This document shows positions 3,677 to 32,820 of a DNA stretch of 64,000 nt, piece by piece (position 1 is the stretch's first letter; each line of letters starts with the position of its first letter). Below the pieces are notes generated by a model that saw only the letters and a list, made by a program, of their open reading frames with translations, did not search any database and was not told where the DNA came from. Source of the stretch: Roseomonas sp. OT10 (GTDB lineage: Bacteria > Pseudomonadota > Alphaproteobacteria > Acetobacterales > Acetobacteraceae). The DNA lies in NCBI RefSeq assembly GCF_020991085.1, contig NZ_CP087719.1, forward strand, positions 2,748,001 through 2,812,000. Reading direction: 5' to 3'. A program made the translations under genes and the position numbers.

Positions 3677-4510
3677 TCACGCCAGGGGCTGCGCGCCCCC
3701 GCACGTGGCCGCGGGGGGCAGCGCCGCCAGCAGCGGTGCGGCCGCCGCCAGTAGGGGCCGCTCTGCCGGCAGGGCATGCAGCAGACCCAGCGGCGGGCCG
3801 GGCGGGAACTCCGCATGCAGGGCCAGCCAGCATCCCGGCCCGCCCGGCTCGGGACCGGAGGAGAGCAGAAGGCTGCGCCCGCCCCAGTCCAGCGGCACCA
3901 CCTCCGCCTCCGTCAGCTCGCCCAGCCGCAGGCCGGGCGACGCCGCCCGCCCCCGCAGCCACCCCGCCGCCCAGGCGAGGGGCGGGCATGGCGGCGCCGG
4001 TGCCGCCCCGCCATGGCGGCGGGCCCCCTGCCCCATCAGGCAGGGGCTGTCCGGCAGGTCGGGCCAGCCCAGCAGGAGGTGCGCCAGCTCATGCGCCCAG
4101 AACCCCAGCGGTGCCCCTGCCGGCAGCGCGGCGTAGCGGCGCACCCAGCGTCCCGGCGCCACCGCCACCCCGCCCCCCGGAACCCGCCAAGCATGCGGCG
4201 CCAGGGGCGCATCGGCGACGATCACCACCGCCGCCGGCGCCTCCGTTCCGGCCGGCAGCGCCTCCAGCGCGCGCCGCGCCAGCCCGGCCGCGTTGCGCGG
4301 CCCCGGCCCCATCCCGCCCGCGGCGCACCAGCCGGCCGGATCGGCGGACAGGTGGACCGGCGGCAGCGGCACGGCACGCGGCCGCCAGTGGCCGAAGCTG
4401 CACGCCGCCCACCAGGCCGCGACCGCCTCCGCCCGTGGCGCGGGCGCCGCCCGTCCGCCGCCGCCGACCGGCAGCACCCCGAACGACGCCTCCGGCGGCA
4501 CGCCCGTCAC
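3677..4510 (-). CDS. Putative zinc metallopeptidase (HExxH), last gene of the injection-system operon
   Basis: A 277-residue protein with the zincin motif HELAH (residues 140-144) followed by LLLGWPD, where G148 and D151 resemble the HExxH...G..D/H metzincin layout. A conserved-looking SPCLMGQG follows, like the SxMxG Met-turn segment of M6/M10-type peptidases. No signal peptide or transmembrane segment is evident. It starts 28 bp after the giant gene and is very likely co-transcribed. Being last in a contractile-injection operon, beyond all structural genes, makes a delivered effector plausible; a maturation protease for the giant protein is the alternative. Substrate unknown. Confidence 0.6.
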   Translation of the reverse strand: MTGVPPEASFGVLPVGGGGRAAPAPRAEAVAAWWAACSFGHWRPRAVPLPPVHLSADPAGWCAAGGMGPGPRNAAGLARRALEALPAGTEAPAAVVIVADAPLAPHAWRVPGGGVAVAPGRWVRRYAALPAGAPLGFWAHELAHLLLGWPDLPDSPCLMGQGARRHGGAAPAPPCPPLAWAAGWLRGRAASPGLRLGELTEAEVVPLDWGGRSLLLSSGPEPGGPGCWLALHAEFPPGPPLGLLHALPAERPLLAAAAPLLAALPPAATCGGAQPLA

Positions 4511-4538
4511 CAGCGGATGCTCCTCCCGCGACCGCCTT

Positions 4539-7500
4539 TCAGGGGCGCCAGGTCAGGATGTCCAGCATGAAGGGCTCCTGCCCGGCCGCCGTGGCACCCC
4601 GCAGGGTGCCGGGCAGGCCCGGCGCCGCGAAGTCCCAGCGCTGCATCCGCAGCCCGCCCCACCAGCGCAGCACCAGGGGCGCGGCCCGGCGATCGCCGCC
4701 GGTCAGCTCCCGCCACTCCGCCGCCATGGCGGTGGCGGCGCGGAGGGCCTCCGCCCCCGCGGGGGTCCCGGGCCGCGCCGCATCGGGGCGGAGGGCGACC
4801 AGGAAGCGCCCGACCGGGAAGGCGGGCCAACCGGCGGGTCCCGGCGGCCTCGGGACGGCGGCCATGCTCGGCCGGTCCTTGTCGCCCGGGTCCCAGGGAA
4901 CGCGCAGCCATCCCATGTCGCGGGCGCCGATCAAACGGGGATCGTTCTCGGGCGCGCGGGCCAGGCGCAGGGTGCGGGCCCAGTCGGTGCGCCGCAGGTC
5001 GAAGCCGGGGTCGCGCGGCCATTCCGGCGTCATCCCGGCCTTGGGCACCCCGGCCGGCACGGGGGCCGCGCCGTTCACCTGCCAGTCCAGCGTGCCGTCC
5101 AGCAGCTCGATGCACAGCGCCCCGCCCACCACCGCGGCCAGCCCGATGCGCGCCGCCGTGCCGCCGGCGGCCGGCGTGGCCGCCGCCAGCGCCGCATCGA
5201 AGGCCCGGGCCGCGTCCTCGGCCGTCATGCCGGCGGTGACCGCGATCGCCGCCGTGGACAAGGTGCCGTTGCCCAGCCGGTAGCTGGCCGCCGCCTCGGC
5301 CGTGGCGCGCACGGCGCGCAGCCCGGGGCGCATCGCCGCCAGCGGTTCCGTGCGCCCCGCCCCCGGCCAGCCGCGTGCCTGTGCCGTCACCCCCGCCCCG
5401 AGCAGCACGTCCGCCACGGCGCGGTCCGTCACCCCGGCCGCCGGGATGCGGACGCTGCCCGCCAGGCCCGGCGAGGCCGTCTCCACCACCACCGTGCCGT
5501 CCGGCCAGGCCGCGGCCGCCCCGGCGCCGCCGGCCCGCAGGGCGGCATCCAGGCGCGCCGCCACCTCCGTCGCGTTCAGCGCCGTGCCGCCGAAGGCGAC
5601 CTCCACCCGGCGTGTCGCGGGCAGGTCGCCGGCGGTGTTCTCGTCGAGCCCGATGGTCAGCGTGCCGTTGGGCGAGACGCTCGCCGCCGGCCGGAAGGCC
5701 ACCGCGGCGCGCTCCGCCGCCCCGCGCGACAGGCTCTCCTCCCAGGCCGGGAAGGCGCCGGCGGCGCCGGCGGGCAGCCATTCCAGCCGCCCCGCCACGC
5801 CGCGGCGGGCGCTCCGCAGCACCCAGCCCATGCCGCCCGGCTCCTCGGGCGCATAGGCGGAGGGGCTGACCCACTCCTCGCCCTGCTCGGCCTCGTCCGC
5901 CGTGGTGTCGGGCTGGGCCAGCCCCGCCTCCAGCGCGGCGGCGATGTCGGCGGCGCTGGCCGCCCCCATGTCCGGCAGGCTGCCCGCCCCCTCCTCGAAC
6001 TGCGGCATGACGGCGACGGGGGCCCCGGCCGCATCGCGCAGGGTGATGCCGGTGGCCGGGTCCGCCGTCAGCGCGGTGCCGCCGGTCAGGCGCAGGTTCG
6101 CGCTGCGCCCGGCCCGGATGGTCTCCAGCACCAGCCGCACCGGCCCCGCCCCGCGGGCGAAGGCGCGCAGGGTCCAGCCGCTGCCGCGCGCGATCTGGGC
6201 GCAGAGCTCGGCCGCGCTGGCCGGGGCGGTCAGGGTGATCGTCCGCGGCGATGGCGGGGGGGGTGGCGAACCGGCCGCGCGGTCGACCTCGACGACCAGC
6301 GTCCGTCCCGCAAGCACCGCCAGGTTGGCCGGCAGGGCCAGCCGGTCCAGCCGCGCCGGGCGCCCCCAGAGCGGGGCGGCGATCACGCGCGACTCCTCGT
6401 CCGGCCGGTCGGCGTGCAGGGTCACCAGCTCCGGCTCCAGCACCCGCGCCGCGCCCAGCGTCGCCTCCAGGCTGCCCGCGGTGCCGCCGGCCAGCAGCCG
6501 CGCGATCGGCCCGGGCGTCCCCCGGACGGACAGCCGCGTGCGCGGACCGTTGGGAACCAGCCGGATGCGCCCCGTGGCGGCGTCGGCGACCGTGGCCCGG
6601 TACAGGGCCTGCGGCGCGTCCGGCAGGGTGGCCGCGGCGTCCAGCCGCGTCTCCAGCGTATCGCCGCCCGGCCCGGCCACGGCCACCGCCCCCAGGTCGG
6701 GGAGGTTGCCCTGGCCGCTGGCGTTCAGCGGGCCGCTCAGCCCCAGCATCCGGCCGCCGGGCGGCGTGCCGGGCACGCTGACCACGACGCGCCCGGCGCT
6801 GCCGCTCACGCCGCCACGGAACTCCAGCACCGGCTGGGCGCCGGGGGCGGGATCGGGGCGCAGGCCGGCCCAGCCCGGCTGGACGTGGCGGGCGATCCAG
6901 GCCGCCGCCGCCGCCACGTCCGGGAAGGCCGCCGGGGCGGGAGGCACGTTGCGCGTCGCCCCATCGATGCTCACCAGCAGCCCGTTCGTCCGCAGGTGCG
7001 CCAACTGGGCCACGGCCTCGGGCGTACCGTCCGCCGGCACCGGGTCCGGGGCCCGCAGCACCGCCGGGGCGCCCAGCAGCGGCAGGGTCGCCCGGCGCGG
7101 CCCGGCGGTGACGGTCAGCAGCCCCGGCCCGGGGGCCACCGGCCCGGGCCGCAGCCGGTCGGTGCCGCTTCCCGCGACGGCGGCCGCCAGGGCGGGCGGG
7201 TCGGAGCCGAGGACCGGCACCGGGGCCGGGGCCTCGCCGCGCGGCTGCAGCAGCACCTCCCCGGGCGAGGCGCCGGGCGCCACGGCATAGAGCGGCGCCG
7301 TCCCGCCCGACGCGGTCGCGGTCGCCACCATGCGGGCCAGCAGGGCCCGGATCTCCGCCTCCTTCACCGCCGCGCCGTCCGCGACGGTGCCGGCGCCGCT
7401 GGCGTCGAGGGCCTCGGCCGAGGGCGGCAGGACGGGCCGGCGGAACCCCAGCGCGAGCAGCGCCGCGCCCCCCTCCAGCCGCAGGGCCCAGTCGGTGCCG

Positions 7501-10500
7501 CCGCCTTCCGTCTCGAGATGCAGCACCGGCACGCCGGTGCCGGGATCCATGGCGAAGGCGAGCAGGCCGGGCACGCCCGCCAGCCGCGCGGCCGCCGTGT
7601 CGGCATCGGTCATGCCCGCCAAGTCCACCGTCGCGGGTGGCAGCGCGCCGCCGGGCCCGGTGATGCGCACGGTCAGCGGCAGGGCCGCGGCGCCCTGCGC
7701 CACCGGTGCCACGGTGCCGCGCAGGATGGCCGGCGAGGCGGCAAGCTGGCCCATGGCGCCGGCCACGACCCGGCCGGCCGCGTTGCTGACCTGCACCGTC
7801 CAGCTGGCGCAGCGGGCGCGGAGGTCCAGCGGCAGGGGCGTGGCGGTGACGCTCAGCTCCGTCCCGCCGGCGGGCACGACGAGCGCCAGCGGGTCCGGTG
7901 TCCGCGAGGCCCGTACCGAGAGGGTGTGGCCCGCGGCGGGCGCGAGCCGCGGCACCCCCGCCGCCGGGGCGGTCAGGAGGCCGCTGGACGCGCCGAACAG
8001 CCGCAGGCGTGGCCGGAGCCGCAGGCCGGGCCCGACCTGGAGATGGTCGTCCGACGCCCCCTCCGCGGCGTCGGACAGGGCGAGGCCACGGCGCAGGAAG
8101 CCAAGCGGCCCCAGCCCCGGGGATTCCGTCAGCGCCATCGATCCGGACCGGCCATGCCGCGCCCCGCCCAGCTCCACCCGCCAGGCGAAGCGCACGGCCA
8201 GCCGGTCGGGCGCCGCCGCGGCGATCCGCTCGGCCAGGTCGAGGAGGTCCTTCGGCGCGTCGGCGAAGGAGATCTCCAGCGGCCCGTCGGCCAGGGCCAG
8301 GACCAGGCGCGCCGGCGTCCCGCCGGCGGGGGCGGGCAGCCGGTCGAGGGCCAGCTCCAGCCGCGCCGGCTCGCCGGTCAGCGGGGCGCGCAGCACGCGG
8401 CCATCCACCTCCAGGTCGATCCAGGAGGAGCCCGGGAGCGAGAGATCGGCCGGCAGCGCATCGGAATGCCAGTCGGCCGCCGCCGCGGCGCTGCCCGGCA
8501 CCAGCGGCAGGCCCTGGGCGGAGATGCGCGCCGCATGGCCGGCGGCGACGCGCAGCCGCAGCCGGTCGCCATCCATCGCCACCACGGGGCCGGGGGCGGC
8601 CGGCTCGGGCTTCAGGGCGGCGGGGGCATAGCCGGTGGGAAAGCTGGCCCGCCCGGCCGCATCGGCCAGCACCCCCAGCAGCGTGGCGGGCGGCACCGCG
8701 CCGCTGTCCGCCACCGCGATCCCCCCGGCCAGCGGCGCGGAAGCCCCGGTCGCATCGCCGGCCGCCGGCAGGCGCAGCGCCCCGGCCGGGTTCGGCCCGT
8801 CCTTCTCCAGCCGCAGGGTCACGTCGCTGCCGCCGGAGACGCTGGCGACGATCACCGCCGCCCCGCCCGGCTCGGCCCAGGCGCGCAGCCCGTCGGCCTC
8901 GAGCATCAGGCGCCGGGCGACGGCGTTCGCGTCGGAATCCGTGGCGCGCAGGGCGACGGATTGCGTCGTGCCCTGGAGCACGACCCGCAGCGCCGTCGCC
9001 GCCCGCGCCGCCCCGGCCATGGCCGGGACCGCCAGCTCCAGCCGCAGCATGGCCGGCGCGGCGAGGATCGGCGGCGCCCAGGCGGCGCTCACCCCGACCG
9101 GCCCGGGATGCAGCGGCAGCGGGGCGGCGGGGACCAGCCCATGCGTGGCCGGGTCCAGCGCGACGCGCAGCACGGCGGCGTTGCGCGGCGTGCCGCGCGA
9201 GAGGTCGGGCGCCGGCCCGCCCGCGGTGAAGGCATTCGCCACGCCGGCGGGCCAGGGGGCGTTCAGCGCGCGGCCCAGGGCGGCGACCAGGTCGGCGCGG
9301 CTGAAGCGGCCGAGGTCGGGCAGGTCCCCGGCGCCGTTGACCATGGGACCGGGCGCGGTGCCGAAGGCGGCATCGCTGCCGGCGGCCAGTTGCAGCCGCG
9401 CGGCGCTGCCGCGGACGCGGCTTTCCAGGACCAGCACCGGCCTGGCGACGACCGCGCCACCCGCCCCGCGCAGCGCGGTGGCCAGGCCGGCGGCCATCTG
9501 GCGGGGGGAGCCGCGCGTGTCCGTCCCCGGCCCGGTCGGCCCGGCCGAGGTCTGCACCGTCTCGCCCGTGGCCAGGCCGCGTTCCGCCGGCACGTCGGGC
9601 AGCAGGCGCGGCCGATGCGCCCCGGCGAGCCAGAACTCGGTGGTCCGCCCGTTCACCCGCAGGGCGGCCTGTCCGCCGAGCATGCGGTAGGGACCCGGCT
9701 CCAACGCCATCATCCTCGCCGTGGGCGGCGCCAGGATGACCGGGGCCAGCCCCGGCAGCGCCGGCCAGCGCAGCGCGCCCAGCTGCTCCGTCTCCGTGTG
9801 TCGGTGACCGGGGACGGCATCCGTGGTGACGCTGCCCCGCGGCAGGACCTGGCGGCGGATCAGCGCCCGCAGCGCCTCCCGGGTGAAGGTCACCTGGTGC
9901 CAGTGGGCGGTGGGCGTCCCGGTCTTCGTCTCCTGGGCGCCGAAGCTGCCCAGGGTATGGCCGGCCGCCGGCACCCCTTCCAGGAAGGCGCCGGGATCGA
10001 TCTCCACGAAATGGAAGTGCTTGACCCCGGTGGCGTCGTCCACGTCGCTGAGCCGGACGAGCAGCGCGCGCAGCGGCCGCGGCAGCAGCGGGTGGACATG
10101 CCCGTCGGGCCCGGCCTCCACCGTGACGTCGGCGGGCTGCCATGCCTCGCCCCGCAGCAGCGCCTCGACCGCCGCGCGCTTGAGGGTGACGCGGTGGCTG
10201 TGGCCGCGCGAGGCTTCCGCGAAGGCCACCACGTCGCCCGCGCCCGCCAACGGCGCGGGCGGCAGGAAGAGGCGGTGCAGGTGCCCGTCCGCGCCGGCCG
10301 CGCCGCCCTCGTCCAGCGCCAGCTCCCGCGTCGCCGGCGCCGGGGTGGCGGCGGGGGCCGCGTTGTCCGACGCGTAGTAGGCATAGGCGATCGGCTTGCC
10401 GGCGATCAGCCCCTTGCCGCCGATCCAGCCCAGCAACGGATACTGCCGGCGGCTCTGTGCCGAGGCGTCGCCGAAGACGAAGGGCAGGCTGCGTTCCGGC

Positions 10501-12665
10501 CCGGACTGGAACTCGTTGGACGAGATGTGGATGTGATGCTGCGCGCTGCGCCCGGTGCTGTCGCAGAGCGCGACGCGCTGGCCGCGCACCACCGCCTGGC
10601 CCGCCACCGGCGCGATGCTCTCCCGCATGACGTGGTAGTAGATGCCCGTGCTCAGCACCCGCTCGTCGTCGCTGCCGGGGTCGTGCCCTTCCCTCCATTC
10701 CGTGTGCAGCAGCGAGAAGTGGTTGGCGTGGTCCGTGCGGTTGGGGTTGACGTCCTCCGCCTCCAGCACCGTGCCGTCGCGCGCGGCCACGACGACCGCC
10801 CCCTCGTTCTCGTTGAAGTCGTAGGCGTAGTGGTTGCTGTCGCCGCCCTTGGTGTGGTGGCTGAAGATGCCGTGCGTGCCCTGGCCGCAGAACCAGGATT
10901 CGTCCTTGCGGTAGGGCAGCCGGTAGGGCGACTGCGCGGGGTCGAGGCCGTGGAAGGCGTCGGGCTTGTCGCGCCCGTCGTCGATGTAGACCCACCACAG
11001 CGCGAAGGGGATCAGCCCGGCGCAGAACAGCCCCATCAGCAGGATCAGCGTGTAGGAGGCGCCGCCGGAATCCTGCGCCGCGAAGGTCCAGATGAACAGC
11101 GCGACCAGCAGCACCGCGGCGATGATGGTGACGACGATGCCCACCACCGCATCGTCGGATTCCACGTCGCTGAGCAGGCCGAAGACCAGCAGCAGGGCGA
11201 GGCCGGTGAAGGCCGCCATGATGACGCGCGTCGGCGTGTCGCCGGCCGGCGGGGTCCAGTCGGCCAGCGTGCTCAGCAGGGTGATCCAGGAGGCGACGCC
11301 CAGCACCACGACCGAGACGAGGGCGGAGACCCACATGGAGGTCGGGAAGCCCTCCAGCCGGAACTGGTCCCAGCTCGGGAACAGCCCGCCCAGCGAGGAG
11401 AGGATCCACCACGGCCCCCAGGCCAGCCACAGCGTGCGCAGCAGGCTGGGCGCGCCGCGTGTCCCCTTGGGCGCATCCTTCCAGCCGCTGAAGTACCAGA
11501 AGGAGCGCAGCATCTGGTAGAAGACGCGCGGCATGGAGACGGCGGTGACATGCTTCAGCGGCCGCACCAGCAGCGAGCTGATGTAGTTGCTGAAGGTCCC
11601 CACCTCGTGGAAGGCCATCAGCGCGCGCAGCCCGTTGGACAGCACGAAGTCGCCCTGGTCGGTGAAGAGCCACTGCGTGCCGGAGGGCCAGGAGGACAGC
11701 GTCTCCGGCGCCGCGCTGCGGACGCTGACGCGGGCGATCTGCCAGGCCAGCAGGATCACGCTCGCCGTGCCGTCCAGGCCGCGGCCGGTGAAGTTGTGGG
11801 TGCGCAGCATCTCCCAGAACAGGTTGAGGGCGCCGACGACCCCGGTGATCAGGTCCATCCACCACAGCTCGTGGCCCGGGGGGAAGGGCGTGGCCTTGCC
11901 CTCCTCGGTGAAGTCGGGCCGGGCGCCGGGCATGGGCTGCGGCCCCTCCACGGTCACCTCGACGCGCACGGAGACGCGCGACAGGGCGGAGAGCAGCGGC
12001 CCGAACTCCGCCTTCATGGCGCCGACCTGCCGGCCCAGCGCGCGCAGCCCCTCGACGTCGAGGCCGTTCAGCAGCGCCTCCGCCTGGCCGCGCAGCAGCG
12101 CCTTCAGGTCGAGGTTGGCGGCGACCGGTGGAAGGTCGGCATAGAGCGGCCGCAGCCGGCGGCGCAGCTCGGCGGCGGTGCGGAAGGAGCGGTGGGCGGG
12201 GGCGTCGCGCCGCCCCTCCCGCAAAGGCCGCTCCAGCATGCCGAGCGCCGCCTCGATCTCCGTGCGCAGCCCGGTCTGCAAGGCGGGCGCGCGCAACTCC
12301 GGCAGGGCGCCGAGCAGGGCGTCCAGCAGCGCGAGGATCGCGCGCCGCAGCGTGTCCGCATCCAGGCTGGCGGCGGCATCGACCAGCTCCGCCAGCTTCG
12401 CCTGCAACGCATCGAGCGAGTTCGGCTGCGGCGCGGTGAGCAGGCCCAGCGGCCCCTGCTGCGCCACGCGCCCCAGGCTTTCGGCGAAGGGCGCCATCCG
12501 CCGTACCAGCCCGGCCGACCATTCCGCCGCGGCCGGCCCGGGATCGCCGAAGCCCGCCAGCCCCAGCGCGGCATCGACCGAGGCGCCGTAGCCGTCGCGC
12601 GCCGGGCTGGCGTCGAGGGCCTCGCGGAGCCGGCCCGGATGCAGCAGGGCGTGGCCGAGCGCCAT
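4539..12665 (-). CDS. Giant multidomain protein: transmembrane helices, M23-like peptidase domain, HxH repeats, long beta-rich tail
   Basis: At 2708 residues this is the largest gene in the window. Residues 1-235 are mostly helical. About four hydrophobic helices lie at roughly 444-468, 481-500, 507-528 and 539-560. Residues about 575-735 look like a LytM/M23 metallopeptidase, with H612 and D616 (HYAYD) and HIH at 711-713 supplying the usual zinc ligands. Residues 795-956 hold six HxH motifs spaced 27-38 residues apart. The remaining ~1700 residues are beta-rich and Ala/Pro/Gly-rich, with recurring G-x-G-x-LPD-x-G motifs. The gene starts 4 bp after the 1137-residue protein, so it belongs to the tail-like operon. 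It could anchor the machine in the membrane, cut peptidoglycan for passage, or be a toxin. No full-length homologue is known to me. Confidence 0.72.
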   Translation of the reverse strand: MALGHALLHPGRLREALDASPARDGYGASVDAALGLAGFGDPGPAAAEWSAGLVRRMAPFAESLGRVAQQGPLGLLTAPQPNSLDALQAKLAELVDAAASLDADTLRRAILALLDALLGALPELRAPALQTGLRTEIEAALGMLERPLREGRRDAPAHRSFRTAAELRRRLRPLYADLPPVAANLDLKALLRGQAEALLNGLDVEGLRALGRQVGAMKAEFGPLLSALSRVSVRVEVTVEGPQPMPGARPDFTEEGKATPFPPGHELWWMDLITGVVGALNLFWEMLRTHNFTGRGLDGTASVILLAWQIARVSVRSAAPETLSSWPSGTQWLFTDQGDFVLSNGLRALMAFHEVGTFSNYISSLLVRPLKHVTAVSMPRVFYQMLRSFWYFSGWKDAPKGTRGAPSLLRTLWLAWGPWWILSSLGGLFPSWDQFRLEGFPTSMWVSALVSVVVLGVASWITLLSTLADWTPPAGDTPTRVIMAAFTGLALLLVFGLLSDVESDDAVVGIVVTIIAAVLLVALFIWTFAAQDSGGASYTLILLMGLFCAGLIPFALWWVYIDDGRDKPDAFHGLDPAQSPYRLPYRKDESWFCGQGTHGIFSHHTKGGDSNHYAYDFNENEGAVVVAARDGTVLEAEDVNPNRTDHANHFSLLHTEWREGHDPGSDDERVLSTGIYYHVMRESIAPVAGQAVVRGQRVALCDSTGRSAQHHIHISSNEFQSGPERSLPFVFGDASAQSRRQYPLLGWIGGKGLIAGKPIAYAYYASDNAAPAATPAPATRELALDEGGAAGADGHLHRLFLPPAPLAGAGDVVAFAEASRGHSHRVTLKRAAVEALLRGEAWQPADVTVEAGPDGHVHPLLPRPLRALLVRLSDVDDATGVKHFHFVEIDPGAFLEGVPAAGHTLGSFGAQETKTGTPTAHWHQVTFTREALRALIRRQVLPRGSVTTDAVPGHRHTETEQLGALRWPALPGLAPVILAPPTARMMALEPGPYRMLGGQAALRVNGRTTEFWLAGAHRPRLLPDVPAERGLATGETVQTSAGPTGPGTDTRGSPRQMAAGLATALRGAGGAVVARPVLVLESRVRGSAARLQLAAGSDAAFGTAPGPMVNGAGDLPDLGRFSRADLVAALGRALNAPWPAGVANAFTAGGPAPDLSRGTPRNAAVLRVALDPATHGLVPAAPLPLHPGPVGVSAAWAPPILAAPAMLRLELAVPAMAGAARAATALRVVLQGTTQSVALRATDSDANAVARRLMLEADGLRAWAEPGGAAVIVASVSGGSDVTLRLEKDGPNPAGALRLPAAGDATGASAPLAGGIAVADSGAVPPATLLGVLADAAGRASFPTGYAPAALKPEPAAPGPVVAMDGDRLRLRVAAGHAARISAQGLPLVPGSAAAAADWHSDALPADLSLPGSSWIDLEVDGRVLRAPLTGEPARLELALDRLPAPAGGTPARLVLALADGPLEISFADAPKDLLDLAERIAAAAPDRLAVRFAWRVELGGARHGRSGSMALTESPGLGPLGFLRRGLALSDAAEGASDDHLQVGPGLRLRPRLRLFGASSGLLTAPAAGVPRLAPAAGHTLSVRASRTPDPLALVVPAGGTELSVTATPLPLDLRARCASWTVQVSNAAGRVVAGAMGQLAASPAILRGTVAPVAQGAAALPLTVRITGPGGALPPATVDLAGMTDADTAAARLAGVPGLLAFAMDPGTGVPVLHLETEGGGTDWALRLEGGAALLALGFRRPVLPPSAEALDASGAGTVADGAAVKEAEIRALLARMVATATASGGTAPLYAVAPGASPGEVLLQPRGEAPAPVPVLGSDPPALAAAVAGSGTDRLRPGPVAPGPGLLTVTAGPRRATLPLLGAPAVLRAPDPVPADGTPEAVAQLAHLRTNGLLVSIDGATRNVPPAPAAFPDVAAAAAWIARHVQPGWAGLRPDPAPGAQPVLEFRGGVSGSAGRVVVSVPGTPPGGRMLGLSGPLNASGQGNLPDLGAVAVAGPGGDTLETRLDAAATLPDAPQALYRATVADAATGRIRLVPNGPRTRLSVRGTPGPIARLLAGGTAGSLEATLGAARVLEPELVTLHADRPDEESRVIAAPLWGRPARLDRLALPANLAVLAGRTLVVEVDRAAGSPPPPPSPRTITLTAPASAAELCAQIARGSGWTLRAFARGAGPVRLVLETIRAGRSANLRLTGGTALTADPATGITLRDAAGAPVAVMPQFEEGAGSLPDMGAASAADIAAALEAGLAQPDTTADEAEQGEEWVSPSAYAPEEPGGMGWVLRSARRGVAGRLEWLPAGAAGAFPAWEESLSRGAAERAAVAFRPAASVSPNGTLTIGLDENTAGDLPATRRVEVAFGGTALNATEVAARLDAALRAGGAGAAAAWPDGTVVVETASPGLAGSVRIPAAGVTDRAVADVLLGAGVTAQARGWPGAGRTEPLAAMRPGLRAVRATAEAAASYRLGNGTLSTAAIAVTAGMTAEDAARAFDAALAAATPAAGGTAARIGLAAVVGGALCIELLDGTLDWQVNGAAPVPAGVPKAGMTPEWPRDPGFDLRRTDWARTLRLARAPENDPRLIGARDMGWLRVPWDPGDKDRPSMAAVPRPPGPAGWPAFPVGRFLVALRPDAARPGTPAGAEALRAATAMAAEWRELTGGDRRAAPLVLRWWGGLRMQRWDFAAPGLPGTLRGATAAGQEPFMLDILTWRP

Positions 12666-12669
12666 GGGA

Positions 12670-18805: not shown

Positions 18806-18814
18806 GGCCCTGCC

Positions 18815-20392: not shown

Positions 20393-20404
20393 GGCGGCCG
20401 GCCC

Positions 20405-21352: not shown

Positions 21353-21364
21353 CGCCGTCTCTCC

Positions 21365-25216: not shown

Positions 25217-25229
25217 GGCGTCGGAATCC

Positions 25230-25288: not shown

Positions 25289-25346
25289 AGGGACGACCGC
25301 CAGAGCAGGAACCACGCGGGCTCCGCCCACGGGCTTGGGGGTGTGG

Positions 25347-25805
25347 TCATCCCGCCACCTCCAGGCCCAGGGTGATCGGGTCGCCGCCGGTCACGGCGCG
25401 GACGGACAGCCCGATGCGCAACGTGTCCGGGGCATTCGGCAAGGGCCCCGTCACCTCCAGCGACAGCACCTCCGCCACGCGGCGCTCCTGCCGCACCGCG
25501 GCCAGGACATAGGCCCGGGCCAGCAGCCGCGCCGGCTCGCCCATCTCCTGCCCGATCAGCTTGTGCAGCCGGCTGCCGTATTCCGCGTGCCCCAGATCGG
25601 CCAGCGCCCCCTGCGGCGTCAGCAGCCGCAGCAGCAGCGCCTGGCGCAGCGAGTCCGGCCCCGAGGCCACCGCCAGGTCCAGCGGCTCCGTCCGCCCCGG
25701 CCCGCCATCGGTGGGTGTCAGGTCCAGCGCATCCCACTCGGTGGCCGAAAGCAGCGGCGCCACCAGCAGGTCCTTGCCCAGGGGGTCGGCCAGGGTTCCG
25801 GACAT
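25347..25805 (-). CDS. GPW/gp25-like baseplate wedge protein
   Basis: A 152-residue protein of the T4 gp25/P2 gpW/TssE family, the wedge subunit that nucleates sheath polymerisation. Diagnostic features are LLTPQGALADLGHAEYGSRL followed by HKLIGQ, and RAYVLAAVRQERRVAEVLSL. Family members are usually 100-150 residues, so this is full length. It is 6 bp downstream of the PAAR gene. Its presence with a gpJ-like and gpV-like protein defines a contractile baseplate. Confidence 0.85.
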   Translation of the reverse strand: MSGTLADPLGKDLLVAPLLSATEWDALDLTPTDGGPGRTEPLDLAVASGPDSLRQALLLRLLTPQGALADLGHAEYGSRLHKLIGQEMGEPARLLARAYVLAAVRQERRVAEVLSLEVTGPLPNAPDTLRIGLSVRAVTGGDPITLGLEVAG

Positions 25806-25811
25806 CGCCGC

Positions 25812-26210
25812 TCAGCCCCCCACCAGCACGGTGCCGAAGGCGAGGATCTGCCCCACCGGCATGTCGGCGGGGTCGTTGCAGGTCTTCACGGTGTCGCTGG
25901 CCCGCGCCGCGCCCTTGCCGCCGATCTTCACCGTGGCGCTGCCCAGCATCACCGTGCCGCTGTTGGCCGGCGGCTTCTGGAAGCTGACGCCTGGCGGCGT
26001 GGGAATGTGCGGCGGCTGGTTCTGCGCCGTGCTGTCCACCGTGGCGGCCGCCTTGCCGCCGACCTTCACCGTCGCGCAGAGCCCGCCATTCAGCATGCCG
26101 GAGAACGGGTGCGGCAGCGGCGTCGGCACGGGCGCCACGGCCGGGACCAGCACGATGTGCGTGTCCACCGCCATCACGCTGTCCCCCTGTCCGGCGGCGG
26201 GCTGTCCCAT
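25812..26210 (-). CDS. PAAR-type spike tip protein
   Basis: A 132-residue protein that sharpens the spike. It consists of repeated beta segments typical of PAAR: HIVLVPAVAPVPTPLPHPFS, GLCATVKVGGKAAATVDS, SATVKIGGKGAARASDTVKT and CNDPADMPVGQILAFGTVLV. The paired VKVGGKAA / VKIGGKGA blocks and the final GTVLVGG are family hallmarks. No C-terminal effector extension. The start at 26210 overlaps the gpV-like stop (ATGA). Confidence 0.85.
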   Translation of the reverse strand: MGQPAAGQGDSVMAVDTHIVLVPAVAPVPTPLPHPFSGMLNGGLCATVKVGGKAAATVDSTAQNQPPHIPTPPGVSFQKPPANSGTVMLGSATVKIGGKGAARASDTVKTCNDPADMPVGQILAFGTVLVGG

Positions 26211-26878
26211 CAGTTCAGCTCCACCGTCGCGCCGCTGATCTTCACCGGCCCGTCCGCCTCGATCCGCACCTCCGCCCCCTTCAGCGTCACGCGGCCGGTG
26301 GCGGTGACGGTCAGGTCGCCATCCTGCTTCAGCTCCACCTTGGTCCCGCCCGCCTCCAGCGCGGCGACGCCGTCGGAGGAGCCGCCATAGCTCAGCTTCA
26401 GCGCGACGCCGGAAGCGGAGACGCGCAGCTCGCCCTTGCGCAGCTCGATCGCCACCTCGCCATCCCCGCCCACCGCCAGCTTGGCCGAGGGCTCGTCGGC
26501 GCCGTCCAGCCGCAGCAGCACGCGGTCTTCGGCACCAGCGGGCCAGAGCAGCGCGATCTCGTCCGCCTTGAACTCCGGCGGCCGCTGCGCATCGGAATAG
26601 ACGCTGGCCACCACGATCCCGGAGACCAGCGCCCCGCGCGGGAACATCACCAGCACCACGTCGCCCACCCGCGGCAGGCAGGCGAGCCCCGTCGCCCAGA
26701 CCGCCACCGGCAGGCGCCGCAGCGCCACGCCGGAATCCTTCAGCGTCACGCTGACCGTGTGGCTGTCGTCGCCCTGGGCGTTGTCGAAGACGCTGGTGAC
26801 GACGGCCAGCTCGCAGAAGGTGCGGCGCTCCGCCTCGTGCCGCGCGAAGGCGGTCATGACTTCGGCGAGGCGGCTCAT
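26210..26878 (-). CDS. gpV-like baseplate spike protein
   Basis: A 222-residue protein of the phage baseplate assembly V/VgrG-spike type. It has an N-terminal OB-fold segment (TFCELAVVTSVFDNAQG, HTVSVTLKDSGVALRRLPVA, LPRVGDVVLVMFPRGAL) and a C-terminal triple-stranded beta-helix needle with repeats such as GEVAIELRKGELRVSASG, VELKQDGDLTVTATGRVTLK and AEVRIEADGPVKISG. The needle would be capped by the adjacent PAAR protein. The start at 26878 was chosen because sequence further upstream is a repeat. Confidence 0.82.
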   Translation of the reverse strand: MSRLAEVMTAFARHEAERRTFCELAVVTSVFDNAQGDDSHTVSVTLKDSGVALRRLPVAVWATGLACLPRVGDVVLVMFPRGALVSGIVVASVYSDAQRPPEFKADEIALLWPAGAEDRVLLRLDGADEPSAKLAVGGDGEVAIELRKGELRVSASGVALKLSYGGSSDGVAALEAGGTKVELKQDGDLTVTATGRVTLKGAEVRIEADGPVKISGATVELN

Positions 26879-27095
26879 GGGGACCCACCGTCGGAATTCT
26901 CGGGGGAGCGGGCGAGGCAGTGCCTCGCCCCCCCAAATCCCCCTCCTTCTTTCAGGAGTCCGCCATCGGCTCCCGGCTCGCTGGCGCAGCCGGCGTGGAG
27001 CGGGTGCAGGTCTCTCCACCACGCGGACTCCCGAAAGAGGGAGGGGGCCAGAGGGGAACGGCTTGGGAGGTCACTCCCTCGCAGGGCGATGCCGA
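26879..27095. repeat. Intergenic gap with inverted repeat arm Y
   Basis: A 217-bp gap between the gpV-like and gpD-like genes. Arm Y (27023-27079) is the near reverse complement of arm X (25230-25288). The segment 26900-26970 contains GGCGAGGCAGTGCCTCGCC (a short perfect hairpin) and CAGGAGTCCGCC, words shared with the interspersed repeats D and E. No gene is visible in it. Confidence 0.8.
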
Positions 27096-28097
27096 TCACA
27101 GCAGCCCTCCCACCGCCGAGAGTGCCGCGCCGAGCAGCCCGCCGGACGCGGCGTCGTAGCCGGTGCCCCAGAGCTGCGACAGCGCGCCGTCCGACGCGGA
27201 CACCGTGTGCACCACCTGGTGCAGCGTGGCGCTGGCCAGCGGCAGCCCGTCCGGCATCTCGGCAAGCTGGAGCGGGAGGCCGGGGGCCAGGCCGGGGGTC
27301 AGGAAGGTGGTCAGGCGCACGGCCTTGGCGCGCGCGGCCCGGGCGGCGGCGAGGGCGTTGGCGGCGGCATCGGCATCGGCGCGGCGGCGGATTTCCGGCA
27401 GGGCGACGCGCGGGCCGCTGCCGGCGCCGCCCTGGAGGAAGTCCTTCAGCACCCAGAGCGCCTGGCCGCCATTCGGGTCGCCGCCCTCGCCCACCACCAC
27501 GGGCACGGCGCCGCCGGGGCTGCCCTCGGTGGATTCCGCGAAGAGGATCTCGCGGCCGTAGCGCAAGGCGATTGGCTGGCCGGGGCTGGCGGGGTCGGGG
27601 AGGTTCAGCGCACCCTCGCCGTCGAAGCTGGCCGAGGCGCCGGAGAGGGCGGCGAGGCGCGCGATCTCGGCCAGCGCCGTGCTGCGCCCGTCCGCGACAT
27701 AGACGGCGAGCAGCGGGCCGTCGGCGATGTCACCGGTCTCCACCCCCGCATCGCCGGCCAGCCGGGCGATGGCCTCCCCGGCGGTGACGCGCTCCAACGC
27801 CAGGGCGGGGCGGAACAGGGCGAGCCGGTCGGCGGGGCCGCGCGCGGTGAGGGAGAGCCCGTCGAAGCGGCGGCGCAGCGCGGCGACGGTGCCGGTGAAG
27901 ACCGTCTCCGCCCCCTCGCCGCCGTCCAGTTCGAGTTCCGCCTCGTCGCCCGGCGCCGCCTCGACCGGAACGCCGGCCGGGAAGGCGACATCCAGCCGGT
28001 CCACCGCCGGCAGGCGGGCGCGGCGCAGGCGCAGGGTGGCGACCTGCGGGCCGAAGATCTGCTCGCCCAGGCGGAGGCTGAAGCTCGGGACCAGCAT
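27096..28097 (-). CDS. gpD-like tail hub protein (late control D family)
   Basis: A 333-residue hub protein corresponding to P2 gpD or the gp27-like part of VgrG, which forms the trimeric platform for the spike. Features: N-terminal MLVPSFSLRLGEQIFGPQVA, a mid-domain AELELDGGEGAETVFTGTV then ADRLALFRPALALERV with AIARLAGDAGVE, and C-terminal LASATLHQVVHTVSASDGAL. These are the usual gpD landmarks (translocated-like barrel, then helical ALERVT...AGEAI segment). It lies 4 bp after the preceding hub adaptor gene, so expression is coupled. Confidence 0.78.
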   Translation of the reverse strand: MLVPSFSLRLGEQIFGPQVATLRLRRARLPAVDRLDVAFPAGVPVEAAPGDEAELELDGGEGAETVFTGTVAALRRRFDGLSLTARGPADRLALFRPALALERVTAGEAIARLAGDAGVETGDIADGPLLAVYVADGRSTALAEIARLAALSGASASFDGEGALNLPDPASPGQPIALRYGREILFAESTEGSPGGAVPVVVGEGGDPNGGQALWVLKDFLQGGAGSGPRVALPEIRRRADADAAANALAAARAARAKAVRLTTFLTPGLAPGLPLQLAEMPDGLPLASATLHQVVHTVSASDGALSQLWGTGYDAASGGLLGAALSAVGGLL

Positions 28098-28101
28098 GCG
28101 C

Positions 28102-28743
28102 CTAGCCCCCCAGCGCCTGGCCGAGCGCCGCCCCGGCCGAAGGGTCCGCCGCCCCCGAGAGCCCGCCCGCTGCGTCCTGCATCGGCGTCAGCGGGTTGCC
28201 GAGCGAGAGGTCCGCCAGCCCGGCCAGCGCCTGGAGCGTGTCCACCGCATCGGCCACGGCGGAGACGGCGTCCTGCAAGGCGCCCGCCTGGTCCAGCACG
28301 TCGCCCAGGATGTCCGTGTCGAAGCCGAGGTCCATCCCCTCCAGTCCGCCGAAGGGGGAGGCCTCGGCCGGCGGCGGCAGCGGCGGGGATTCGCGCAGCA
28401 ACAGGCGATAGGCGAAGCGGTCCGGGGCGCCGGCGCGCTCGGTGAAGACCGCCTCCGCGACGACGACCTTGGCCAGCTCCAGCGCGGTGGCGATGTCGGC
28501 GGCGAAGTCCAGCTCCTCGCCGGCCGCGGCGGCGCCCTGCAATTCCGCCAGCCGGTCGCGCGCCTCGGGGCCGGAGAGCAGCCCGTGCAGCTCGATCTCG
28601 TGACTGGCGCGGCCGAGGCTCTGCTGCGCATCCCCCGCCAGCCCGACCACCGGCAGCCCGGCGAGGCGCTGGCGCAGCCGTGTCTCCGCGAAGGTCACGG
28701 CGTCCAGCGCCAGCTCGCCGAGCAGGGGGATGGGGCGGGTCAC
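28102..28743 (-). CDS. Tail hub/spike adaptor (DNA-circulation-protein-like N-terminus)
   Basis: A 213-residue protein. The first 110 residues, PIPLLGELALDAVTFAETRL, SHEIELHGLLSGPEARDRL and LELAKVVVAEAVFTERAG, resemble the N-terminal beta domain shared by Mu-type DNA circulation proteins and tube-hub adaptors. The C-terminal 90 residues are Ala/Gly/Leu-rich, helical and low-complexity. It stands directly before the gpD-like hub, where contractile systems usually have a LysM-type adaptor; no LysM motif is seen here. Confidence 0.55.
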   Translation of the reverse strand: MTRPIPLLGELALDAVTFAETRLRQRLAGLPVVGLAGDAQQSLGRASHEIELHGLLSGPEARDRLAELQGAAAAGEELDFAADIATALELAKVVVAEAVFTERAGAPDRFAYRLLLRESPPLPPPAEASPFGGLEGMDLGFDTDILGDVLDQAGALQDAVSAVADAVDTLQALAGLADLSLGNPLTPMQDAAGGLSGAADPSAGAALGQALGG

Positions 28744-29588
28744 GGCAGGCTGACCCCGGCTTCGAGGGCGACCCGTTCGAGCAGGTCGGCCAGCAGCTCC
28801 TCCAGTTCCTCCCCGGGCAGGCTGGCGAGGGCGAGGCGCAGCGCGGCCGCGGCCTCGGCGGCGGGGACGGCGGTGGCGGCGGGGCGGAGCGACGGTGGGG
28901 CGGGTGGCGCGTCCGGCCGGTCCAGCATCGCGACAGGCGCGGCGGCCAGGGTCGGGAAGCTCGCCGGAAGGGGCGTCGGAGCGGCCGGGCGCGCCGAGGC
29001 GGGAGAGAGGCCGGGGGCCGCCGGCGGCGGTGCGGCGGTGCGGGCGGGCGCCTCCGCCCAGCCGGCGAGCCGGGGCGGGCCCGGCGGCGCGGGCGGCGTG
29101 GCGGCCATGGCCGCCGGCACGGCCGGCGCGGCGACGGGGGCGGGCATGGGCGCGGCGGGCGTGGTGGCGGGCAGGCGGAAGCGCACCCCGGCGGGACGGG
29201 GTGGCCGGGCGGCGGGAGGCATCTCCCGGGGCATGGCGGATGCGGCCGACGGGCTGTCGGCGGGCGACGTGCCCGGCGCGGTGACAACAGCCAGCCCTGG
29301 GGAGACGGGCGGCGCCATCCGCACCCGCCCGGCCACGGCGCGTCGCGGCGTCGCGATGGTGCCGGTCCCGGTGGCGATGGCGGATGCCGCAGCCGGGGAT
29401 ATGCCCGGTGAGGACGCCACCGCGGGCGGAGCGACCGGCTCCGTCCAGCCCGGCGCGCCCTCCGGCCCGGACGCCGCCTCCACCCCCGGCCCTGCCGCGC
29501 GGGGCGGATCGGCCCAGCCGGCGGCCCGGGCCAGCAGCGCATCCAGCCTCGGGCGCAGTCGCTCCTGCTCGGCGAGGAGGTCAGCCAT
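28740..29588 (-). CDS. Proline/alanine-rich tail-operon protein
   Basis: A 282-residue protein with a short helical N-terminus (ADLLAEQERLRPRLDALLAR), a ~190-residue Pro/Ala/Gly-rich middle, and a helical C-terminus (LRLALASLPGEELEELLADL). The first and last segments look like real helices; the middle is probably disordered. Its stop overlaps the next start (ATGA) and its start overlaps the previous stop by 8 bp. In position it matches the short helical proteins encoded between tube and hub in contractile systems, such as chaperones or a tape-measure stub. No family recognised. Confidence 0.5.
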   Translation of the reverse strand: MADLLAEQERLRPRLDALLARAAGWADPPRAAGPGVEAASGPEGAPGWTEPVAPPAVASSPGISPAAASAIATGTGTIATPRRAVAGRVRMAPPVSPGLAVVTAPGTSPADSPSAASAMPREMPPAARPPRPAGVRFRLPATTPAAPMPAPVAAPAVPAAMAATPPAPPGPPRLAGWAEAPARTAAPPPAAPGLSPASARPAAPTPLPASFPTLAAAPVAMLDRPDAPPAPPSLRPAATAVPAAEAAAALRLALASLPGEELEELLADLLERVALEAGVSLP

Positions 29589-30054
29589 CCGGCTCCTCCA
29601 TCACGCGGATGCTGTTCCAGCCGGGGGGCGGCGCGTGGGGCGCCGGGGCAGGCTCGTCCAGCCCGGCGAGAAGGGCATCCAGCCCCGCCGCCGGCTCCGC
29701 CTCCAGCGCCCCGGGCATCCAGCCGAAGCGGACGGCCAGACGCGCCTCGGCCGCGGCGAGCGGCGCGGGCGCCGGCCCCTCCCCCACCCCCAACAGATCG
29801 AGCGCGAGGAGAGCGTGCAGCGGCGCCAGCTCGGCCGGCGGCGCCGGGTCGTAGAGCATCGCCGCCAGCCCCGCCGTGAAGGCCGGCCCGTCGAAGCGTC
29901 CGCCACGCGTGCTGGCCGCGACCAGCCGCCGGCGCTCGCCCCAGCGCCAGGGGCGCAGGCGGCGCGACGTCTCGCCGAAGCGGAGGTGCCAGACGCCCTC
30001 GGCCGGGTCGAGCGCGATGGCGACGCCCTCGGCCGGGGATGGGAGGGGGATCAT
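29581..30054 (-). CDS. Small tail-operon protein following the tube gene
   Basis: A 157-residue protein beginning MIPLPSPAEGVAIALDPAEG followed by VWHLRFGETSRRLRPWRWGE. In contractile injection loci the gene after the tube often encodes a small assembly protein, and the ERRRLVAASTRGGRFDGPAF block is consistent with a compact basic domain. The start at 30054 was chosen 19 bp after the tube stop. No motif allows a more exact call. Confidence 0.5.
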   Translation of the reverse strand: MIPLPSPAEGVAIALDPAEGVWHLRFGETSRRLRPWRWGERRRLVAASTRGGRFDGPAFTAGLAAMLYDPAPPAELAPLHALLALDLLGVGEGPAPAPLAAAEARLAVRFGWMPGALEAEPAAGLDALLAGLDEPAPAPHAPPPGWNSIRVMEEPDG

Positions 30055-30073
30055 CCGGGCGCGCGGCGGCCCC

Positions 30074-30469
30074 TCAGGCCGCCGCCTCCTCCCGCAGGCG
30101 GGTGGCGGTGAAGTCGTAGACGGCCTCGGCATGGCCGCCGGCGGCGAGGGCGAAGCTCTTGCCCGTCATGGTGCAGCCGTCGAAGGCCACCGTCCGCTCG
30201 GGTTCAAGATCGGCGCGGGAGGAGAGGTTGGCGACGATCTGGAAGGCCTCGCCCGAAACCAGCAGCGCGTCCAGCGCGTCCGAGGCGGAGGCGACGGTGA
30301 TCCGCCCCGCCACGCTGGTGCCGCCGTAGACGACGCCGATGCGCTCGGCCGAACCGAGCGCGTAAACGCTCGCCTGCGCGCGCTGGTGCTGGAAGTCGAT
30401 GCCCCGCACGCCCGCGACGCGCTCGCCCGCGACCAGGACGGCGGAGCTGTTGGCGGTGAAGACGGCCAT
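30074..30469 (-). CDS. Putative tail tube protein
   Basis: A 131-residue beta-rich protein right after the sheath gene, the standard place for the inner tube. It contains GERVAGVRGIDFQHQRAQAS, the VVYGGTSVAGRITVASAS segment, and a C-terminal strand GHAEAVYDFTATRLREE, compatible with the tube fold of stacked hexameric rings. The identity rests mainly on position and predicted fold, since the sequence is divergent. Only one tube gene is present, whereas many extracellular contractile systems encode two or three. Confidence 0.65.
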   Translation of the reverse strand: MAVFTANSSAVLVAGERVAGVRGIDFQHQRAQASVYALGSAERIGVVYGGTSVAGRITVASASDALDALLVSGEAFQIVANLSSRADLEPERTVAFDGCTMTGKSFALAAGGHAEAVYDFTATRLREEAAA

Positions 30470-30483
30470 GTCCGTGCCTTCCC

Positions 30484-32820
30484 TCAGTTCCGCACGCGGA
30501 TGGTGGCGTAGACGTAGTCGATCGCCCGCACCGGCCGCACGGCGATGTCGACGCGCAGGATGCCCGCGGCGAAATCCGTCTGGCTGCCGTAGACCTGCAC
30601 GGTGAAGGCGGGGTCCTTGCCGTCCATGCTGGGCACCAGCGCGCCGTCGCGCTCCATCTGGGTGAAGGTGTCCACGATCATCTGCCGCAGCGCGCCGCGC
30701 TGCTCGCTGTTGTTGAGCTGGCCGATGAAGCGGTCGGCGATCTTGCTCACCTCCCGCACGCAGCGGTCGGCGGTGCGCAGCACGTTGATCTGGAAGCCGT
30801 CGCTCGTGATGCCCTTGACGACGATGGTGCCGCGCCCGCGCTTCGAGAGCACGACGCAGACATTGCCCTCCGGCCCGACCAGCTTGTTCAGGTCGCTCTC
30901 GGTATAGGGCACCAGCGGTGCGGAGAGGCTCGCCACCGTCTTGAAGGTGGGCGACTGGAAGACGTCGAGATGGCCGAGCAGCCCGGCCACCGCGCCTTCC
31001 GCCCCGCCCGGCGCCACCAGGATCAGCCGTCGCCCGGCCACCGCCGCCGCCTGGGACAGGATCGCCGCCGGGTCGTTCTGCGTCGCCGGGTTCACCCCCG
31101 CCAGGGCGATGCGCGGCTTGGCCAGGTCCGCCTGGGCCGTCGCATGGGCGGCGAGGGCGCGCTGCACGTCCAGATGCGCCAGCGCCGTGTCCTTCCAACC
31201 CTGCAGCCCCGCCAGGACGAGGTCCACGTCGCCGACCTGCGCCAGCGCGTCCACCGCCGCCTGCCATGCCGCCAGGCCGGGCATCGCGCCCTGGGTGAAG
31301 CGCTGCGGTGCCAGGCTGCCGGCCGGCAGGTGGCTCGCCCCGCGCCGCACGAAGCGGTCCAGCGCGCGCAGCAGGTTGGATTCCGCCGCCAGCACGGCGG
31401 GCAGGTAGCGCGGGTCGTCCGGGTCCATGGAGAGGTTGTCGAAGCTCTCCTGCTCGGCGAACTCGCCGCCCTGCTGCAGTCCGGCGGTGATCCGCGCCGT
31501 GCCGGCCAGCGTGCCCGCCTGCATCCGCACCCGCAGGGCGGCCGCATCCGCCCCCGGGGCGGGCACCAGCTCCAGCACCGTGGCGTCGGGATTGTCCTGG
31601 CCCGCATAGGCCCGCGCCGGGCCGGCATCGTGGCCGCCGGAAAGGAAGTTCGCGTTCGCCGCGCCGACATCCGGCAGGCGCGTGCCATCCGCCCCGGCCG
31701 CCAGTGCCGCCGTCACCTGCGGCAGCGCGTCCAGCGCGGCGGCGATGGCGGCGGCGCTGTCCAGGTCGGCGAGTTCGGTGGTGGAGACGCCCTCCTCCGC
31801 CAGGGTGACGGTGACGGTGCGCAGCAGCGGCTGCCGCCCCGCCGTCGCCGCGGGCAGGACGTCGCCCAGCCGCGTGACGGCGACGGTGGGATCGGCGGAG
31901 AGCGCGTCCAGCAGCGCGGCCACGCTGTCGATCGGCTGCGCCGCGCCGCCATAGCTGCGGATGTTGCCCTGCGGGTCCTGCACCTCGATGGTCACGGCGG
32001 CGGCATCGCCGGTGATGCCGATGCGGTTGCCGGTCCCGGCGAGGCCGGGCGTGCGGGCGGAGATGCGGATGGACGGCGCGGCCGCCGCCCCGGCGAAGGC
32101 CCGGCTGGCCCGGCCCTGCCCGACGGAGAGCGAGAGACGGTTGCCGCGGCCGCCGGCATCGGCCGCCGTCACCTCCACCAGCGTGTCGTTGCCCGCGCGC
32201 AGCCGTCCGCGGGCCGGCTGCGCCCCGGCATCGGCCAGGGCCACGAGGCCGGCATCGAAGGCCGGCAGATCGGTCATCAGGTCGGGGTCGATCGCCACGA
32301 CCAGGCCGCTGTCGCGGTTGATCGTGGAGAAGAAGTCGTTGTCCCGCGTCGAGTCGAAGACCAGGCCGTCGAAGCGCTCCGCCGCCACGCCGTTCAGCGA
32401 GATCTCCAGCGACAGCCGGCGCACGGTGCGCCCGTCCTCCGCCATCACCCGCACCACCCGGGCCCCGAGCGCATTGCCCCAGGGCCCGACGGCGCGGGCG
32501 CGCAGCAGGGCGACGGGCTGGCCCTCGTCATCCATGATGGTCAACTCGGCGGCGCGGCCCGAACGGGGATCCACGGGCGAGACGAAGAGCTCCGAGATGC
32601 CGTTCGCCAGCGCGTCCATCACCTCGGGGAAGGCGTAGCGGGTGGCCGCGCCGAAGCGCTCCAGCAGCTCCGGCGCGCTGGTGACGCCGGAAAGCTCGCC
32701 CGCGGGGGCGCGATCGACGACGCCGACCGCGCCCAGGATTCCGGAACGGGCGGGAAGGGGTGGGGGGACATCGAAGCGCGTCTCCACCGACACGCCCGGA
32801 ACAACCAGCATGCGTGCCAT
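30484..32820 (-). CDS. Contractile tail sheath protein
   Basis: A 778-residue sheath subunit whose contraction drives the tube. The C-terminal domain carries the signature VREVSKIADRFIGQLNNSEQ followed by RGALRQMIVDTFTQMERDGA, and just before it GNVCVVLSKRGRGTIVVKGI. The N-terminus (VVPGVSVETRFDVPPPLPAR, then ILGAVGVVDRAPAGE) is also typical. The ~350-residue middle (about 200-480) holds extra beta domains, making it longer than P2 FI (~400) and nearer to T4 gp18 size. The ATG at 32820 follows a GGGGGGATCAC ribosome-binding site; an in-frame ATG 24 bp upstream is weaker. Confidence 0.88.
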   Translation of the reverse strand: MARMLVVPGVSVETRFDVPPPLPARSGILGAVGVVDRAPAGELSGVTSAPELLERFGAATRYAFPEVMDALANGISELFVSPVDPRSGRAAELTIMDDEGQPVALLRARAVGPWGNALGARVVRVMAEDGRTVRRLSLEISLNGVAAERFDGLVFDSTRDNDFFSTINRDSGLVVAIDPDLMTDLPAFDAGLVALADAGAQPARGRLRAGNDTLVEVTAADAGGRGNRLSLSVGQGRASRAFAGAAAAPSIRISARTPGLAGTGNRIGITGDAAAVTIEVQDPQGNIRSYGGAAQPIDSVAALLDALSADPTVAVTRLGDVLPAATAGRQPLLRTVTVTLAEEGVSTTELADLDSAAAIAAALDALPQVTAALAAGADGTRLPDVGAANANFLSGGHDAGPARAYAGQDNPDATVLELVPAPGADAAALRVRMQAGTLAGTARITAGLQQGGEFAEQESFDNLSMDPDDPRYLPAVLAAESNLLRALDRFVRRGASHLPAGSLAPQRFTQGAMPGLAAWQAAVDALAQVGDVDLVLAGLQGWKDTALAHLDVQRALAAHATAQADLAKPRIALAGVNPATQNDPAAILSQAAAVAGRRLILVAPGGAEGAVAGLLGHLDVFQSPTFKTVASLSAPLVPYTESDLNKLVGPEGNVCVVLSKRGRGTIVVKGITSDGFQINVLRTADRCVREVSKIADRFIGQLNNSEQRGALRQMIVDTFTQMERDGALVPSMDGKDPAFTVQVYGSQTDFAAGILRVDIAVRPVRAIDYVYATIRVRN

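Follow-up and report, generated by a model that had tools for sequence, protein, structure and literature searches.

A Roseomonas operon for a contractile injection system without a recognisable CIS-type ATPase, probably part of a distinct clade found across bacterial phyla

Extracellular contractile injection systems (eCISs), among them Afp, PVC, MAC and AlgoCIS (subtypes Ia-IId), carry an ATPase gene in the operon and two or three tube genes, and effector loading in PVC is the work of the AAA+ ATPase Pvc15, according to PMC11495950. R-type tailocins, such as pyocin R2 and diffocin, and contractile phage tails have no ATPase, a single tube and a separate hub and spike, while the type VI secretion system (T6SS, TssA-M) has a contractile sheath, a PAAR tip and the tube protein Hcp. 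Here we describe a contractile injection system (CIS) operon from Roseomonas sp. OT10, found in a 64,000-nucleotide stretch of its genome (contig NZ_CP087719.1, positions 2,748,001 to 2,812,000), the whole of which is called the window below. The operon consists of 19 CIS genes, all on the minus strand, packed and with every frame open, at positions 3677-32793 of the window (Table 1); besides the sheath, tube, hub, spike, PAAR, gp25 and gpJ wedge it encodes 12 further products. This set is the one given in a preliminary description of the window, in which the tube was still a candidate; the tube has now been recognised by its AlphaFold fold. We consider it reasonably probable that the operon encodes an ATPase-independent CIS of a distinct, horizontally spread clade, with g7 as its tape measure and a giant terminal payload.

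The window resembles eCISs in having homologous sheath, hub, spike, PAAR, gp25 and gpJ (Afp11) genes in a similar order, with big variable genes toward the 3' end. Profile-profile comparison by hhalign matched these six products to ordinary eCIS proteins at 94-100% probability, gpJ reaching 94.0% against Afp11 over 190 columns only, and the tube, g19 and g13-g7 matched no ordinary eCIS profile above 10%. Unlike eCISs, the window has no ATPase gene in the operon, a single tube, a gpJ of 571 amino acids (aa) against a median of 1105 aa for ordinary eCIS Afp11, and a tube and g19 unmatched to eCIS tube or Afp7; the hub tree also separates the two. By sequence g22 matched neither an eCIS tube profile nor any PDB sequence, and its identity comes from the predicted fold: an AlphaFold model compared with PDB structures shows a tail tube, in spite of weak capsid labels in PHROGs. 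The window and each of the 21 clade loci that hold a sheath have one recognised tube gene. gpJ has eight solved relatives at E<=0.01; each bears the name of a phage or tailocin baseplate protein and none comes from an eCIS, and gpJ stands near phage and tailocin triplex proteins; the closest solved relative of the hub is the VgrG-like 9gtr_q (1.2e-14), followed by the Mu-like hub 3cdd_A (0.0014). Because the hub matches a VgrG-like CIS hub and gpJ matches phage and tailocin proteins, the machine appears to unite a CIS-type hub and tip with a phage-type wedge. No solved relative was found for g19 at E<0.1, nor any for g13 or g9. The DUF4255 family PF14065 had no match in the window genome, with a profile that matched no control genome either. 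The PAAR protein of the window is 57-78% identical to those of 80 loci (L023-L102), archaea included, which is far above the rest of the machines. Sheaths of the clade fall into two sizes, 534-570 and 721-779 aa, and the window sheath carries a stretch, residues 274-399 (126 aa), for which the 564-aa sheath of Humitalea has no counterpart.

The lack of an AAA+ ATPase, already claimed in the preliminary description, was borne out at several levels. No open reading frame of the window matched an AAA+ ATPase (Cis15/Afp15), and no ATPase profile matched the fetched DNA of 25 clade loci, in which the upstream flanks extend only a few kb. An alignment of the CIS-type ATPase built from eight ordinary loci was then used to search 23 genomes. 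Three positive-control genomes scored 1009-1058 bits, compared with a best match of 64 bits in the genome of the window, which is 100% complete. Fourteen of the 18 clade genomes yielded no CIS-type ATPase (>200 bits): their matches all stayed at or below 83.4 bits and covered the generic AAA core. The parts list, the gene order, the tube fold and the absence of matches to a CIS-type ATPase and to TerL were observed directly. The TerL family PF03354 has no match in the whole genome, the same profile having matched three of 14 control genomes; a capsid/terminase set near the edge of the window is what the preliminary description had set against its own reading. Apart from the weak PHROGs labels on the tube, no capsid family occurs among the 19 genes. 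Neither gpJ nor the sheath gave a tblastn match in 50,697 phage records, and gpJ matched none of 72,556 plasmids. IMG/VR returned 11 relatives of gpJ (at best 29-43% identity, partial) and three of PAAR, and none of these 14 loci belongs to the clade. A prophage or phage origin was rejected on the lack of phage-record matches for gpJ and sheath and of clade members among the IMG/VR loci.

With gpJ as query, 17 matches were obtained in 100 relatives: the window's own genome, three (G002, G018 and G048) that are strong along most of the protein, and 13 weak ones. In Pararoseomonas baculiformis (G002) and Humitalea rosea (G018) the operon matches the window gene for gene. When a PAAR alignment was compared with genome contigs, 202 stretches matched, 188 of which encode a relative, and 80 loci were kept. 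The window's gene order was found in 25 of the 80, H. rosea and P. baculiformis among them, complete from sheath to g11 in 19 and cut by contig ends in six, and these come from five phyla: Pseudomonadota, Myxococcota, Thermodesulfobacteriota, Acidobacteriota and Actinomycetota. The other 55 are mostly ordinary eCISs or fragments, with a few intermediate loci (L074, L101, L055 and L065). A hub tree with 55 rows places the 26 rows of the clade, the window among them, in one group (100/100) and 22 ordinary eCIS rows in another (100/100), which makes the window system a member of a distinct clade found across phyla. Within the clade the phyla of the hosts are intermixed, which points to horizontal transfer of the system. 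The nearest rows to the window are Acetobacteraceae SJ470, Neoroseomonas soli, a gammaproteobacterial metagenome-assembled genome (MAG), Plesiocystis and two Sphingomonadales; P. baculiformis, of the same genus, is placed elsewhere in the clade, so that the genus has two different versions. Such systems are rare: by the gpJ profile at E<=1e-70, 1 of 385 genomes of the class, 1 of 398 of the phylum and 3 of 249 of the family carry one, the window's own genome being counted each time.

These comparisons agree with the earlier view that the locus is neither a P2-like prophage nor a T6SS nor an ordinary eCIS, since it has one tube, its hub is separate from its spike, its gpJ is of single length, and it has no CIS-type ATPase. 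Among the loci compared here, those with full synteny are all poorly recovered by profiles of ordinary eCISs; gpJ and the sheath matched no phage record, and no clade member occurs among the IMG/VR loci returned. The make-up had also been called atypical, but the locus is not unique, being a regular member of a cross-phylum clade. Two other groups lie close to this clade. In the hub tree four loci form a sister group (99/95): two IMG/VR contigs (L122 and L133), Bathyarchaeota L055 and Marinifilum L065. They carry genes between the tube and g19, at a place that would suit a tape measure, and the 622-aa gene that L122 has there contains an HExxH motif. The second layout (G048, also L022; Nitrospirales L119; Caldilineaceae L120) shares hub, spike, PAAR, gp25 and gpJ with the window, as well as g7 and a TM/M23 (transmembrane/M23) protein in G048 and L119, but there both g7 and the M23 protein precede the hub, and in all three loci gpJ is followed by a protein of about 800 aa. 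Two layout-2 genomes (G117 and G118) score 203 and 369 bits for a CIS-type ATPase somewhere in the genome.

The operon ends were compared in 18 genomes, 15 fetched clade genomes together with the window, G018 and G002. The whole terminal module was reached in 16 of the 18 operons, and an HExxH motif is present in all 16. Type A modules (window, L103, L106, L108 and L114) consist of a giant protein and a zinc protease of about 250-280 aa, in which HExxH, WPDL and LM are conserved in five of five operons. Four of the five type A giants show a TM cluster, L114 being only partly called; the cluster comprises four strong segments in g6 of the window and in L103 and L106, and five in L108. An M23-like domain adjoins the cluster, with the Asp and HxH of its motif kept in six of six aligned proteins; self-BLAST found no internal repeats in g6. 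In type B modules (11 operons) the giant measures 1779-2279 aa, contains an HExxH motif internally, with Q and GP after it, and lacks a TM cluster of the g6 type. All five type A operons fall within one seven-row hub subclade (100/99), and the kind of module therefore appears to follow the lineage of the machine, with both kinds bringing a zinc-protease motif. The module is the last in the operon, the same place that PMC8213781 gives for toxins where it describes eCISs. By this analogy we infer that the terminal module is the payload.

Upstream of the giant, g7 is 1076-1140 aa long in 15 members (mean 1100, standard deviation 21) at a median pairwise identity of 20% (range 16-69%), and the terminal genes of the same set range from 1779 to 2759 aa. 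Plesiocystis L114 (called in part on the wrong strand), Devosia L113 (no called g7) and L104 and L109, which end at contig ends, were left out of this count or flagged. The g7 homologue of the Nitrospirales locus L119 sits between g19 and the hub, the customary place of the tape measure in phages. From its near-constant length at low identity, g7 is likely a tape measure and may fix the length of the tube. If so, at the textbook scale of 0.15 nm per residue the tube would be about 165 nm long.

We propose that the machine would assemble like a tailocin, without an ATPase, with g7 setting the tube length and g13-g8 supplying baseplate, fibre and collar parts. Contact of the baseplate with a target would trigger contraction of the sheath, by which the tube, spike and PAAR tip would be driven in. 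The terminal module would be packaged as payload during assembly of the machine instead of by an ATPase loader, and the giant would then be delivered or fire with the tip. In the window, the TM segments and M23-like domain of g6 would insert in and open an envelope, and the zinc protease g5 could be a co-effector or a processor. A more far-reaching reading, which we put forward tentatively and regard as less probable, is that of a separate phylum-crossing CIS lineage without an AAA+ loader, in which the giant is packaged as it co-assembles with the tape measure, two zinc-protease-bearing kinds of payload are interchangeable, and which the filters of surveys have missed. Co-assembly is suggested because the two genes adjoin and the TM/M23 protein of layout 2 also stands directly after g7. 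A clade with a tube, a spike, a PAAR tip and a giant cargo-like gene but no loader would be a natural test of whether the motor is necessary, and, if this reading is true, would offer a compact chassis beyond the Afp/PVC family.

Several points weigh against these proposals. No particle of this machine has been seen. The gene g7 lies near the 3' end of the operon, outside the usual position of a tape measure, and g9 as a tail terminator gave a collinear hhalign alignment at 1.4% probability. The M23 assignment is below the Pfam cut-off (27.3 and 23.6 bits against 28.7 in the two giants scanned), and its first metal-binding His is kept in three of six relatives, while RHS repeats pass Pfam in two of three type B giants tested. 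A gpJ tree keeps the groups unmixed but supports the clade weakly (50/76, 51% of bootstraps); in it L005 and L010 are long with a doubtful frame, and L006, L008, L013 and L016 were dropped (frame <300 aa). Finally, four of the 18 clade genomes, those of Plesiocystis (L033), Frankia sp. QA3 (L046), a Bryobacteraceae MAG (L050) and Cellulomonas (L081), have a CIS-type ATPase elsewhere (289-483 bits) that could act in trans. It lies about 330 kb from gpJ in Frankia and on other contigs in the other three, and this distance from the clade operon suggests that it belongs to an additional ordinary eCIS. These four genomes would also suit an ordinary eCIS with its ATPase and a second tube encoded at other places in the genome. 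We find this very improbable, for no such ATPase was found in the other 14, the window's complete genome included, and only the PAAR and spike of the window are recovered by eCIS hidden Markov models (HMMs) at E<=1e-5; PF14065 gave no match, in a search that found none in the controls either.

The missing ATPase, the single tube, the separate hub and spike, and the single-length gpJ with its phage and tailocin relatives would suit an R-type tailocin-like particle that kills bacteria by puncture and carries no payload, its terminal giant being an adhesin or accessory surface protein. Like tailocins, the window encodes a contractile tail without an ATPase and without a head (TerL). Unlike them, it has a PAAR tip that shares 57-78% identity with those of clade loci and ordinary eCISs, and its terminal module, conserved in 16 of 16 operons, bears a protease; its hub is nearest to a VgrG-like CIS hub, and neither a lysis gene (Pfam, PHROGs) nor a lysis or regulator cassette was recognised among the 19 genes. 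eCISs too may lack an obvious lysis gene. We therefore consider a tailocin unlikely. A membrane-anchored, contact-dependent machine working in the T6SS mode, with g6 as its anchor, would fit the strong TM segments of g6 beside an M23-like domain able to open peptidoglycan, and it has a precedent in the haloarchaeal CIS, for which PMC11566945 describes a proposed, operon-encoded membrane anchor with six predicted TM helices. Such an anchor would suit only part of the clade, however, as in type B members a giant without that TM cluster replaces g6. The window shares with the T6SS a contractile sheath, a PAAR tip and a tube fold common with Hcp, but no T6SS-specific Pfam family (TssJLM, the membrane complex, TssBC or ClpV) was found among the 19 products, the only set searched, and we judge an anchored machine quite unlikely. 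That the operon is a functionless tail remnant of a decaying prophage would agree with its tail-only genes and its rare, patchy occurrence; with 19 open, packed frames in the same order across five phyla, a g7 length held at 20% identity and no tblastn match in phage records, there is very little to recommend it.

The clade has probably been overlooked by published surveys, because one dropped loci without the ATPase and another needed ten core genes. The survey in PMC12210884 states that loci with Cis13 and Cis14 but without Cis15 were excluded, and eCIStem, as set out in PMC8213781, took loci with four or more linked genes that represent three or more different eCIS Pfams, and then asked for ten core genes and one of AFP12/13/14/16. 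As far as these statements go, the window would fail both, judged with profiles built here rather than the published HMMs. Our 14 eCIS profiles were built from ordinary loci, which makes the comparison partly circular; they recover a median of 12 proteins in the 51 ordinary loci of the training set and 2-5 (median 3) in the 25 clade loci, against two in the window. Literature searches, mostly at the level of search results, found no published description of such a clade. If the far-reaching reading is true, surveys with Cis15 or ten core genes as the definition of a CIS count too few of these machines in soil and water bacteria.

Table 1. Genes of the operon and its borders in the window (all coordinates are window positions)
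Gene	Product or proposed role	Length (aa)	Position	Strand	Remarks
g23	Tail sheath	769	30484..32793	-	hhalign 94.9% to eCIS sheath
g22	Single tail tube protein (predicted fold)	131	30074..30469	-	AlphaFold and PDB comparison
g21	Putative tail assembly chaperone, by its place	157	29581..30054	-	No family match
g20	Pro/Ala-rich, variable protein	282	28740..29588	-	8-bp overlap with g21 stop; no family match
g19	Clade-specific protein	213	28102..28743	-	Adjoins hub; within-clade identity 40-73%
g18	gpD/VgrG-like hub		27096..28097	-	hhalign 99.1% to eCIS hub
g17	gpV-like spike		26210..26878	-	hhalign 99.2%
g16	PAAR tip		25812..26177	-	57-78% identity to the 80 retained loci
g15	gp25-like wedge / sheath initiator		25347..25805	-	hhalign 98.2%
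g14	gpJ-like wedge	571	23501..25216	-	phrog_6 2.4e-39
g13	Baseplate protein, clade-specific	437	21910..23223	-	
g12	Possibly fibre-like, by position and sequence	182	21365..21913	-	
g11		315	20405..21352	-	Kept within clade
g10	Possibly fibre or whisker-like	525	18815..20392	-	Coiled-coil
g9	Candidate tail terminator	295	17918..18805	-	DUF4255-like alignment collinear, non-significant
g8		613	16080..17921	-	Kept within clade
g7	Proposed tape measure	1137	12670..16083	-	Ala/Leu-rich, helical-looking
g6	Terminal giant	2708	4539..12665	-	Helical N-terminus; TM 440-559 (four); M23-like 611-715; long C-terminal region
g5	Zinc metalloprotease-like protein	277	3677..4510	-	HExxH..L.WPDL..LM
recR	Downstream border, outside system		2971..3483	-	True start probably further upstream
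	Acyl-CoA dehydrogenase-like; upstream border, outside system		33067..34221	+	

At the downstream border, a ybaB-like gene stands directly before recR in four of four congeners fetched; here the CIS operon occupies that place, and the ybaB-like gene of the window genome is 1.67 Mb away from recR. Elsewhere in the window, a plus-strand gene called at 39449-42037 overlaps, at its 3' end, a tRNA-Pro gene (cgg; 41959-42051) on the minus strand, and the call of the former may be too long.

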